Source of the DNA: Bdellovibrio sp.
Lineage (GTDB): Bacteria; Bdellovibrionota; Bacteriovoracia; Bacteriovoracales; Bacteriovoracaceae
Direction: 5' to 3'
Length of the DNA stretch: 61,488 nucleotides
NCBI GenBank assembly: GCA_020720455.1
Contig: DYOQ01000010.1
Coordinates: 1-61,488, forward strand
Shown here: positions 28,494 through 52,987 of the stretch, piece after piece
Numbering within the stretch: the stretch's first letter is position 1
Layout of the letters: each line of letters starts with the position of its first letter
Made by a program: the position numbers and the translations under genes
Notes under the pieces: model-generated
The model's input: the letters and a program-made list of their open reading frames with translations, nothing else
Database searches by the model: none
What the model was told of the DNA's origin: nothing

Positions 28494-28511
28494 GAGGCAC
28501 GAAATTTGCTA
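28494..28511 (+). promoter_or_regulatory. Sigma-54-type promoter upstream of the marR-family gene
   Basis: GGCACG (28496-28501), four bases, then TTGCT (28506-28510) reproduces the -24/-12 arrangement of RpoN promoters. The base before GGCACG is A instead of the usual T. Transcription would begin near 28521, giving a leader of about 90 bases before the GTG at 28612. Confidence 0.55.
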
Positions 28512-28611: not shown

Positions 28612-29061
28612 GTGCAAAAAGTTGCTTCAATTGGAAGTCTATTAAAAAAAGTTTACAGACTTTACAGCGGCGCTCTATTAGACGATTTAAAAAAACGTGG
28701 CTTTTCCGATCTACGTCCATCTTTTTTAGAAATCTTGTTATATATTTGTGAAAACAATGGCCCTTTGATTAGAGATATTGGCAAAGCTTGTGGATTAAAA
28801 AAACAGACGATGACAGGCCATTTGAATGAGCTTGAGTTAAGAGGTTACATAAGCAGACGACCTTCTTTAAAAGATAAGAGAGGGCAAGAAGTATTTCTTA
28901 CTGAGTACGGTGAAAAATTTAGACTTAACCTGTATGAGAGTATGGAAGAGCTTGAAAAACGATATTTAAATCTACTTGGCTCGCTTGAGATTGAGAGACT
29001 TGAGTTAGCGCTTGAAGTTTTTCACTCACGAATTTCCAGCGAAGAGATTTCTTTTATTTAA
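28612..29061 (+). CDS. MarR-family transcriptional regulator
   Basis: This 149-residue winged-helix repressor-type protein has a recognition region LIRDIGKACGLKKQTMTGHL near residues 48-67. The wing is RRPSLKDKRGQEVFLTEYG near 83-101, which is characteristic of MarR. A long C-terminal helix would serve as the dimer interface. The GTG start follows GGAGGG by six bases. The 3' end overlaps the convergent RelA/SpoT-type gene by 36 bases. The ligand and targets are not known. A sigma-54-type promoter about 100 bases upstream would be unusual for a MarR gene. Confidence 0.88.
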   Translation: MQKVASIGSLLKKVYRLYSGALLDDLKKRGFSDLRPSFLEILLYICENNGPLIRDIGKACGLKKQTMTGHLNELELRGYISRRPSLKDKRGQEVFLTEYGEKFRLNLYESMEELEKRYLNLLGSLEIERLELALEVFHSRISSEEISFI

Positions 29062-50647: not shown

Positions 50648-51322
50648 CTAACGACTCCCTTGTAAGTATGCCCATATTGGGAACGAGCAGTATCCGACAA
50701 CGATTAGGATTGCGTAAAGTTTTGCAACTATTTTAATAACTGGTGTGTATCGTGGATGGTCGATGCCAAATGTTTGGAACATTGACCAAAAACCGTGTGA
50801 GACGTGAAGAGCAAGGCCAACCATTGCCAAACAGTAGAGCGCAACACTGACCGGTTTAGAGAAGAATTCCATTACCAGTTTGTATAGATCTCGAACCTCT
50901 TCCCCGTTTGCTGAAGTAGTATAGTGTGGTCCAAACTTTAAATTAATTAAGTGAATGATTAAAAAGAGTCCAACGAATAGAATTCCTGTCCAGGGCATCG
51001 TTGATGATGCAAAGGTCGCTCCATTTCCAGTTGTATTTTTGACGTAATAATTAACCGGTCTTGCTTGCATATTTTGAATCGTAACTCTGATTGCAAAAAA
51101 AGCGTGAGCAATAAAAATTGCCGCCAGTACAGCTTCAGCGATGTAAATTAGCGGATTAGACGTTAACTTATGGGCGTACATGTTAAATATGTCTGGCCCA
51201 ATGTAAAGCATGACATTTCCGGCCATGTGGGTTAGTAAAAAGCCACAAAGCATGGCCCCTGTAATGGCCATGAAAACCTTGTTCATAATAGAAGAGGTTA
51301 ACCGAACGCGATTTGCACTCAT
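50648..51322 (-). CDS. sdhC: Succinate dehydrogenase cytochrome b558 subunit
   Basis: This 224-residue five-helix membrane anchor belongs to the type B succinate:quinone oxidoreductases, which bind two hemes. Conserved His residues lie in LLTHMAGN, the AHAF helix, [11 protein letters not shown] and [18 protein letters not shown] just before the ATG at 51322 rules out the fifteen extra residues of the longest frame. First gene of sdhCAB. The type B enzyme normally works with menaquinone. Confidence 0.93.
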
Positions 51323-51399
51323 CGAATCCTCCGTTGTTGCAGTTGCGGTAGTCGTGTTTGTGTGCAAGCACTTTTAATAAAATAAAAAATTATTAGTCA

Positions 51400-51427: not shown

Positions 51428-51532
51428 CAACTTAGTGTCATTTTTTTTACGCAAGAGCAACGTGTTAACGTCATCATTTTGACTGTGTAAAGTGGTAATG
51501 CGCTCCTAGTTTGATTCTTAAGTTGAAAAATC

Positions 51533-51549
51533 TTGGCACGATTGTTGCT
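51533..51549 (+). promoter_or_regulatory. Sigma-54 promoter in the sdhC-helicase gap
   Basis: TTGGCACG (51533-51540), four bases, then TTGCT (51545-51549) is an essentially perfect RpoN -24/-12 promoter. Transcription would start near 51560 and run rightward. An intrinsic terminator ends about 118 bases later, before the helicase gene. Confidence 0.8.
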
Positions 51550-51559
51550 CATACAAAGA

Positions 51560-51677
51560 TCAGTGTGTGCCATAGTTTGGAGAAGAAAGGATTTTTTCTC
51601 TTTGTGGCGAAGCTACTCTATTTTTAAAAAGGGTTTGTCGTGACTAAATTGCTTATTCGACAGACCCTTTTTTTTTT
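51560..51677 (+). ncRNA. Putative sigma-54-dependent small RNA
   Basis: The interval between a near-perfect sigma-54 promoter and a strong intrinsic terminator is about 118 bases and contains no convincing open reading frame. A purine-rich stretch (GGAGAAGAAAGG) is followed by a pyrimidine stretch that can partly pair with it. Nothing here matches an RNA family I know. The RNA could be a regulator made under nitrogen, envelope or predation-related control; this is inference from promoter type only. The exact 5' end is an estimate. Confidence 0.6.
51631..51677 (+). terminator. Strong intrinsic terminator
   Basis: GGGTTTGTCG (51631-51640) pairs with CGACAGACCC (51658-51667) with one G-U pair, a seventeen-base loop, and a run of about ten T residues. 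It points rightward and precedes the helicase start by 62 bases. Confidence 0.88.
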
Positions 51678-51739
51678 ATTTTCACCAAGCATCAGTTGTT
51701 GTAGAGTCACGAAAATTTATTTTTATCAAAGAGGCGTAG

Positions 51740-52987
51740 ATGGGTTTTCATTCGTTGGTTGAGTTTCCGGCCGCAATGAGTTTTCTTGCAGAAGAGGGGA
51801 TTCAAAAACCTACAGAGGTTCAGGCCGTAGTTATTCCTAAGCTTATTAGTGGCGAGTCAGTCGATGTCTTGGCACCAACTGGTAGCGGAAAAACTATTTC
51901 ATACCTTATCCCGACAGTTTATCATATAAAAGAACAAGAAAAATCTCGTGGCGGTGTTGTTGATCGTCCATCTGTAATTGTCTTGGCCCCGACGAGAGAG
52001 TTAGTTGGCCAAATAGTTGCTCAGTATAAAAAGTTATCCCATCATGCGAAGGTAAGAGTCAGGCATATTGTTGGTGGGGATCACGATGCTAAAATAAAAT
52101 TATGCGCTAGAACGGATATTTTAATCTCTGCTCCTGGAAAGTTGGCCCAAGCATTAAAGAAAAAACTGATTGATGTTACTGATGTCAAATATTTGATCTT
52201 TGATGAGGCCGATCAACTTTTTGAGAAAGGGTTGCAAAACGAGTTGATTACAATTGTTCAAGCTGTCCCGAAGTCAGTTGTTATTGGGCTTTTTTCAGCA
52301 ACGATGCTTGAAGATATGAGCAGCAGAAAAGAGACGTTGTTTGGTAGTAAGAAGTTTAAAGTTTTAAATCTTCATGGGGCCAACAAGGTTATTCCAACTA
52401 TTGAAACTTATAACATGAGGGTAACTACTAATGAAAAAAATGAGATGCTGGCCCTTTTCTTAAGGAGAGAGCGCAGGCCAGGCGTTGTTTTTGTTAATAG
52501 AAAAGAGGATGCGCAGCGAGTTTTTGATTTTTTAAGAAGAGAGTTTGATAAGAGAAACATCACGCTTCTTCATGGTGGGATGAGTGTTGAACAACGAAGA
52601 GTCTCATATAAACTTTTTTTAAAAGAAATAGGCGTGATGGTGTGTACCGATATAGCAGCAAGAGGAATGGACATAAAAGGGTTAGAGTGGGTACTAAATT
52701 ACGATCTTCCATCTGCTGCCCAATATTATATTCATAGAGCAGGAAGAGTTGGAAGAGGCGAAGGAAACACTGGCGTTGTTTACAACATGGTAACTCCTAG
52801 AGATGGTGAAATCATTAAAGAGATTAATCAACATATAAGGAATCAGACAGCATTTAAACCTAAAGAGATTCCAGCAATGGGCAATCTTAAAACCAAAAAA
52901 GATGGAAAAAAAGATGCTGGTGATGGTGACAAGAAGAAAAAATTTAAAAAAACCCCTAGGTATGTTGTAAGGAGAAGAGATGATTAG
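51740..52987 (+). CDS. DEAD-box ATP-dependent RNA helicase
   Basis: This 415-residue helicase has the full motif set: APTGSGKT near residue 46, PTRELVGQ near 85, FDEADQLF near 154, SATM near 186, HGGMSVEQRR and HRAGRVGRG near 338. The C-terminal 40 residues are very rich in Lys and Asp and probably bind RNA. It acts in ribosome assembly or RNA turnover; the exact subgroup (RhlE/SrmB-like) is not certain. GAGGCG precedes the ATG. Its stop overlaps the lipoprotein gene by eight bases. Confidence 0.92.
   Translation: MGFHSLVEFPAAMSFLAEEGIQKPTEVQAVVIPKLISGESVDVLAPTGSGKTISYLIPTVYHIKEQEKSRGGVVDRPSVIVLAPTRELVGQIVAQYKKLSHHAKVRVRHIVGGDHDAKIKLCARTDILISAPGKLAQALKKKLIDVTDVKYLIFDEADQLFEKGLQNELITIVQAVPKSVVIGLFSATMLEDMSSRKETLFGSKKFKVLNLHGANKVIPTIETYNMRVTTNEKNEMLALFLRRERRPGVVFVNRKEDAQRVFDFLRREFDKRNITLLHGGMSVEQRRVSYKLFLKEIGVMVCTDIAARGMDIKGLEWVLNYDLPSAAQYYIHRAGRVGRGEGNTGVVYNMVTPRDGEIIKEINQHIRNQTAFKPKEIPAMGNLKTKKDGKKDAGDGDKKKKFKKTPRYVVRRRDD

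Follow-up and report, generated by a model that had tools for sequence, protein, structure and literature searches.

A predicted sigma-54-driven small RNA family of the Bacteriovoracaceae with complementarity to leaders of replication genes

Introduction

Sigma-54 together with an enhancer-binding protein drives several small RNA genes, including GlmY/GlmZ and CrcZ, which, like the Qrr RNAs, act with Hfq or RapZ. The Qrr small RNAs of Vibrio are also driven by sigma-54 and an enhancer-binding protein (PMC10162802). GcvB of enterobacteria has a conserved, unstructured GU-rich segment, R1, which is complementary to CA-rich elements within or directly before the ribosome binding sites of many mRNAs. 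It silences translation-enhancing CA-rich/ACA elements at the ribosome binding site and, in a single instance, 45 nt ahead of the start codon (PMC3879156). RsmY, RsmZ and CsrB, as well as McaS, carry GGA motifs of the ANGGAN type in hairpin loops; CsrA/RsmE sites are defined by such a loop and by the SELEX consensus RUACARGGAUGU (PMC7652899). CsrA also chaperones small RNA-mRNA pairing, as described for SR1 in Bacillus subtilis (PMC8501984). EcpR1 of Sinorhizobium meliloti is a trans-acting small RNA that modulates cell-cycle regulation (PMC4414408).

Among predatory bacteria, Bdellovibrio bacteriovorus has attack-phase small RNAs that were reported to lack homology outside B. bacteriovorus, three of them with FliA promoters, and merRNA, which is 445 nt long and contains a c-di-GMP riboswitch (PMC3627812). 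Here we analysed a stretch of 61,488 nucleotides (the window) from a genome deposited as Bdellovibrio sp. (GCA_020720455.1, contig DYOQ01000010.1). A region of this window is predicted to encode a member of a new Bacteriovoracaceae small RNA family; all of the evidence is computational, without transcript, RNA-seq or binding data.

Results

A perfect sigma-54 promoter precedes a predicted terminated RNA unit

The intergenic region between sdhC (PF01127) and a DEAD-box helicase gene (PF00270) had been proposed, in a sequence-only reading, to contain a near-perfect -24/-12 promoter followed by a strong terminator. Both flanking genes were verified, the terminator is present, and the promoter proved to be without mismatch (TGGCACG-N4-TTGCT; + strand, TTGGCACGATTGTTGCT). 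The window observation, a promoter with a terminated RNA unit, is thus confirmed (Table 1). Our automated terminator scan had missed the hairpin because its loop limit was 8 nt. The 2.70-Mb assembly contains two perfect -24/-12 sites, one of which is this promoter; with at most one mismatch there are 18 sites genome-wide versus 4 for a reversed control pattern. The RpoN gene is present in this genome. A separate one-mismatch site, AGGCACGAAATTTGCT, lies at 28495-28510 (+) of the window, about 100 bp before a 149-aa ORF (28612-29061).

The RNA from 51560 to 51681 (122 nt) is predicted to form a two-hairpin fold, about 4.9 SD better than dinucleotide shuffles (z = -4.85); the terminator is the second of the two hairpins. 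Searching the window against Rfam 15 gave no match at gathering thresholds and chance-level matches only at permissive E-values up to 10. The earlier claim that no ORF lies between promoter and terminator has to be qualified: short mechanical ORFs do span the small RNA region, but no reading frame across it is conserved among relatives. The claim that only a small RNA explains the arrangement exceeded what the sequence alone allowed, and expression is unproven; nevertheless, the comparative evidence speaks strongly for a sigma-54 small RNA that has a terminator of its own.

The enhancer upstream of the promoter had been overlooked. GTCA-N6-TGAC occurs in 58 of 78 distinct upstream regions, compared with at most 11 for the commonest dyad in shuffled sets. 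Dyad centres lie approximately 58, 70, 82, 93, 103, 114 and 126 bp before TGGCAC, in steps of about 11 bp or roughly one helical turn, and dyads of relatives are often paired about 32 bp apart. Such a layout would be expected of a site for an enhancer-binding protein; the activator protein is unidentified. The locus therefore has both features of a small RNA gene of the sigma-54/bEBP type, a promoter in register and a phased upstream activator site, and its start is unmapped. The same enhancer and promoter type is also found at a small lipoprotein-like gene in five g15 genomes (L227-L231), and the same activator may control this gene and the small RNA.

Table 1. Coordinates of predicted features at the small RNA locus (window positions)
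Feature	Position	Strand	Remarks
sdhC (Sdh_cyt)	50648..51367	-	divergent neighbour, also beside the RNA in g14, g18 and g48; true start probably an internal ATG near 51322
Second, imperfect enhancer dyad GTCATTTTTTTTAC	51437..51450		7/8 consensus bases; 33 bp upstream of the first dyad
Perfect enhancer (upstream activator) dyad GTCATCATTTTGAC, GTCA-N6-TGAC	51470..51483		centre 57 bp before TGGCAC
Sigma-54 promoter (-24/-12)	51534..51549	+	no mismatch
Predicted small RNA	51560..51677	+	start put 12 nt downstream of the -12 C, 3' end taken at the T run; ends not mapped experimentally
Shortened 5' GU repeat, GUGUGUG	51563..51569	+	partly paired here
Hairpin 1	51569..51608	+	apical AAAGGAUUUUUU at 51586-51597, GGA at 51589-51591; candidate CsrA site
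Linker	51609..51625	+	GCUACUCUAUUUUU in place of canonical AUGUCUCUC
Intrinsic terminator	51626..51677	+	15-pair stem, 17-nt loop, T10
DEAD-box helicase	51740..52987	+	downstream, outside the RNA unit

The predicted RNA appears to belong to a family with conserved architecture

BLAST comparison of 166 bases with 129 genomes from the window's GTDB family returned several weak collinear matches starting at the promoter. The relatives inspected share the sigma-54 site, GTGTGTGTG, a varying GGAG...AARAAAGGATTTTTT...CTCC, ATGTCTCTC and a terminator of variable sequence. A covariance model built from nine relatives' sequences detected the RNA in 96/129 family genomes and 32/48 genera, as a single copy in all but two. 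A strict RNA pattern that is blind to the promoter was run on one genome per species (84,980 species) and gave 67 matches, 65 in Bacteriovoracales, as assigned from record titles and RNA similarity, and two in planctomycete records. All 65 possess a sigma-54 site (at least 8/11 consensus bases) whose -12 C precedes the GU repeat by 10-13 nt, which places the GU run at the predicted 5' end of the RNA. The two planctomycete matches have no sigma-54 site and look like chance.

These results answer the question, raised by the sequence-only reading, of whether promoter and terminator are conserved together: the sigma-54 site stays in register in every Bacteriovoracales match, and a terminator hairpin follows the RNA. 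The suggestion that the RNA family may be new is also borne out as far as Rfam 15 and the papers searched go.

The family unit comprises, in order, phased enhancers, the sigma-54 promoter, a 5' GU repeat, a GGA-loop hairpin, a CU-rich linker and the terminator, with an RNA of about 90-120 nt. Canonical members have a GU repeat of 8-11 nt and two unpaired segments, GUGUGUGUG and, in the linker, AUGUCUCUC. In 57 members, 91.9% of the pair cells of the hairpin are paired, a value that leans upward because the alignment was fitted to the model structure, and 11/14 pairs show changes on both sides. All covariation measures beat 500/500 shuffles, and sliding the register abolishes the signal. Peptide coding was considered and rejected, since frames are not conserved. 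An enhancer and promoter search yielded candidates from the genera g27 and g33 that have diverged even further: they keep GGA-loop hairpins and lack the GU repeat and linker.

Unpaired segments match leaders of replication genes

The unpaired segments of canonical members are complementary to leaders and start sites of dnaA, dnaE, nrdA, thyA, tdk, recA, mutS, scpA/B and xer. In the 129 genomes, the strict pattern CACACAC-N3..33-GAGAGAC-N0..12-ATG occurs at 34 distinct sites in 26 genomes, and the reversed pattern at 0. Most of these sites fall at plausible start codons, and 22 of the 34 belong to replication, nucleotide or chromosome genes: thyA (3), dnaA (2), dnaE (2), nrdA (2), class II ribonucleotide reductase (1), tdk (2), recA (2), mutS (1), scpB (2), scpA (1) and xer-type recombinases (4). 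Each assignment rests on Pfam or on a clear resemblance to a copy tested with Pfam. The other sites belong to an HNH endonuclease (2), a 114-aa protein without Pfam match (5), short peptides (3) and an unassigned protein (1), and the remaining one is a probable chance match in a genome without detected RNA.

GGAGAGAC-N0..6-ATG alone was rejected as a target mark: it is about twofold over control with or without the RNA, its positions are mostly random, and no recognised replication gene is among its matches. The twofold excess is explained by Shine-Dalgarno content, and because this motif by itself is unselective for replication genes, most of the signal comes from the CA-run. On mRNAs with the strict pattern the CA-run precedes GAGAGAC, so that simultaneous pairing of both with one RNA molecule would be sterically awkward.

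Some leaders outside the recognised replication genes bear the same motifs. The HNH endonuclease gene of g16 (L234, L261, L262) has CACACAC...GAGAGAC in its leader, and in G051 (L234/L261) it has the full enhancer and sigma-54 promoter too, suggesting a feed-forward arrangement; the L234 leader, which was found before the strict pattern was searched, holds CACACACACAACACACAC and GGAGAGAGACUAUG, and between them these can pair with each of the RNA's two unpaired parts. CACACAC and GAGAGAC are also found in the leaders of the conserved 114-aa protein (L269-L273) and of a 24-aa hydrophobic peptide (MYVRILSQFILVMFLVVVAGQAFY type; L287/L291), both of which are possible unrecognised members of a replication-linked regulon.

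The thyA leader mark co-occurs with the canonical RNA

We chose thyA since three genomes had shown the strict motif there; the remaining genomes are new data. Among thyA leaders from 88 genomes, a CA-run (length 6 or more, no further than 80 nt from the start) was present in 41/70 genomes with canonical RNA versus 0/18 without (P = 2e-6), and at the genus level in 15/24 versus 0/12 (P = 2.6e-4), compared with 3/250 background genes of the same clade. The genomes are phylogenetically dependent, and counting genera removes this dependence only partly. GAGAC at the thyA start codon was found in 14/70 canonical-RNA genomes, 0/18 others and 4/250 background genes. As controls, a GU-run showed no link to the RNA and an ACA variant a weak one. 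Predicted duplex energies with the GU segment and linker are better only in canonical-RNA genomes. The CA-run leaves thyA unmarked in 29/70 canonical-RNA genomes.

The window copy appears to be a divergent ortholog

We interpret the window copy as a divergent ortholog of the family RNA, on the basis of sdhC synteny as in three other genera, the perfect promoter and enhancer, and the AAAGGAUUUUUU hairpin. In the window, as in L193/L123/L211 (g14), L194 (g48) and L196 (g18), a divergent sdhC is located 195-372 bp upstream. The copy retains the enhancer, promoter, short GU run, AAAGGAUUUUUU hairpin and terminator and has lost the antisense linker; the covariance model scores it at 21.7 bits (E 0.16 in 544 kb) and misses it under stricter filters.

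No CA-run is present at the window genome's own thyA, and duplexes predicted between the window RNA and this thyA barely outscore shuffled sequences (z -0.8 with each of the two segments). A search of this genome for CACACAC, GGA and ATG gave 3 matches versus 1 for the control, none at a recognised replication gene. Since no target was found in this genome, the window locus may use other pairings or CsrA alone.

The downstream neighbour varies in relatives and is convergent in 78/117 loci. In 78 of these 117 loci the gene facing the small RNA convergently resembles, judging by its sequence, members of the ureohydrolase (arginase/formimidoylglutamase) family; sucC-like genes occur further downstream at 27 of the loci, and sdhC occurs upstream at 20.

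csrA is widespread in the family and Hfq was not detected

We found csrA in 117/129 family genomes, including that of the window. Hfq was detected at E 0.001 in 0/129 genomes, with control genomes positive, and an Hfq-dependent small RNA was rejected on this ground. The apical AAAGGAUUU is invariant, and its loop AAGGAU fits ANGGAN and the core of RUACARGGAUGU; some g27 versions have loops ACGGAA and ACGGAU. Canonical members and the window copy have one invariant loop GGA, whereas in g27/g33 versions the GGA hairpins number two or three and their flanks are changed. RNAs that sequester CsrA/RsmA bear several GGA motifs in hairpin loops, which canonical members and the window copy do not. CsrA binding at the GGA loop is inferred, without binding data.

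Discussion

By computation we established the promoter, the enhancer, the RNA family, its complementarity to leaders and the co-occurrence with thyA. We consider it probable, with moderate confidence and without expression or binding data, that the family consists of GcvB-like antisense RNAs directed at replication genes, perhaps with CsrA as a helper, and that the window copy is a divergent ortholog whose own targets are unknown. The canonical GU repeat and AUGUCUCUC linker would pair with CA-runs and GAGAGAC(AU) at leaders and starts of replication and nucleotide genes, and this pairing would block translation, as GcvB does at ACA/CA enhancers; transcription and pairing in the cell are both inferred. 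An unknown signal acting via RpoN would hold replication down, with RpoN and the activator setting the timing. Given the GcvB-like anatomy, repression of replication genes is the most likely outcome, although the sign of regulation is likewise an inference. CsrA on the ANGGAN loop would be the likely helper because Hfq is undetected, again by inference. In the window copy, which is without the antisense linker, the GGA hairpin is possibly the main active part.

The kind of regulator is already known, both as a sigma-54 small RNA and as an antisense RNA to leaders; the family itself is new to Rfam 15 and to the papers searched, in which no description of the RNA was found. Its closest counterpart in mechanism is GcvB. 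An unpaired GU-rich segment facing CA-rich leaders is found in canonical members only and is unsupported in the window's genome; there is no match to the Rfam model of GcvB, and homology is not shown. Unlike GcvB, the family RNA has a sigma-54 promoter, a GU repeat at its extreme 5' end and no detected Hfq, and its proposed targets are replication genes rather than amino-acid uptake genes. It resembles the Qrr RNAs in its sigma-54 and enhancer type of control, but has no Rfam match to Qrr, GlmY/GlmZ or CrcZ, and its enhancer is GTCA-N6-TGAC. With RsmY/RsmZ/CsrB it shares a GGA in a hairpin loop, but canonical members have one invariant GGA hairpin, and the Rfam RsmY and McaS models gave only chance-level scores. 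The dnaA mRNA is reportedly discussed as a target of EcpR1, which differs in being alphaproteobacterial, in showing no sequence relation and in having a much narrower replication target set. SR1 is the model that we propose for the role of CsrA in a family without detected Hfq; it is unrelated in sequence and also encodes a small protein. The attack-phase small RNAs and merRNA are comparable in being small RNAs from a predatory relative. None of the papers searched describes a dedicated RNA whose complementarity covers so large a part of the replication programme.

Several other explanations have to be weighed. It is possible, although we think it rather unlikely, that the RNA is of the CsrA/Rsm type and titrates CsrA through its GGA hairpin loop, with base-pairing secondary or absent. 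The invariant apical AAAGGAUUU fits the known CsrA sites (PMC7652899), the g27/g33 versions bear several GGA hairpins, and csrA is common in a family in which Hfq is undetected. However, each canonical RNA offers a single invariant GGA, the other (GGAG) lying in a stem and often being GGGG, while sponges usually have several sites, and very stable stems are possibly disadvantageous for CsrA binding (PMC7652899). Titration would also leave unexplained the conserved GU repeat and linker and the complementarity to leaders of thyA and other genes. It may nevertheless be how the RNA really works in the window's genus and in g27/g33, where GGA loops are kept without the antisense segments.

The RNA could instead activate replication genes, for example by opening leader structure or protecting mRNA 5' ends, which we regard as unlikely. 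Some sites lie upstream of the Shine-Dalgarno sequence (median distance to the start, 23 nt), and pairing there would not necessarily block ribosomes; but in strict targets the second site overlaps the start region, and the GcvB precedent is silencing.

Less probable still, the CA-run/GAGAGAC leaders may be a separate mark of replication genes, such as a transcription-start or translation-enhancer element, to which the RNA is complementary by coincidence. Several genera have a TATAAT-like box shortly before the CA-run, which places the run near the likely mRNA 5' end, and CA/ACA elements alone can enhance translation (PMC3879156). Against such coincidence, thyA CA-runs are missing in 12/12 sampled genera without canonical RNA, a second, independent complementarity (GAGAC at the start codon) is distributed alike, and the motif pair matches exactly the two conserved unpaired segments.

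Finally, the reading without a free RNA, as a sigma-54 leader or attenuator of the helicase gene or as a short peptide gene, can hardly be maintained: in the window the helicase has the same orientation and lies 63 bp beyond the terminator, but the downstream gene differs in relatives and is usually convergent, the phase between conserved blocks varies with no ORF common to relatives, and covariation favours RNA structure.

Returning to the GcvB-like antisense RNA, we hypothesize, tentatively and with more doubt than conviction, that one sigma-54 small RNA, assisted by CsrA and not by Hfq, coordinately switches the Bacteriovoracaceae replication programme (initiator, polymerase, dNTP supply, chromosome segregation and recombination) and holds replication off in the non-growing attack phase of the predators among them, a phase to which its link is inferred. 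Some lineages, including that of the window, would have rewired it, with the seeds changed or lost and the promoter and hairpin kept.

It is an open question how bacterial predators suppress DNA replication during the hunt and initiate it once inside prey. A conserved small RNA with leader complementarity to dnaA, dnaE, nrdA, thyA, tdk, recA and condensin genes is a directly testable candidate regulator, and it comes with a defined promoter, an enhancer and predicted pairing sites. If true, it would be a multi-target antisense RNA where Hfq is undetected, and a suitable case in which to ask if CsrA has assumed the role of Hfq.
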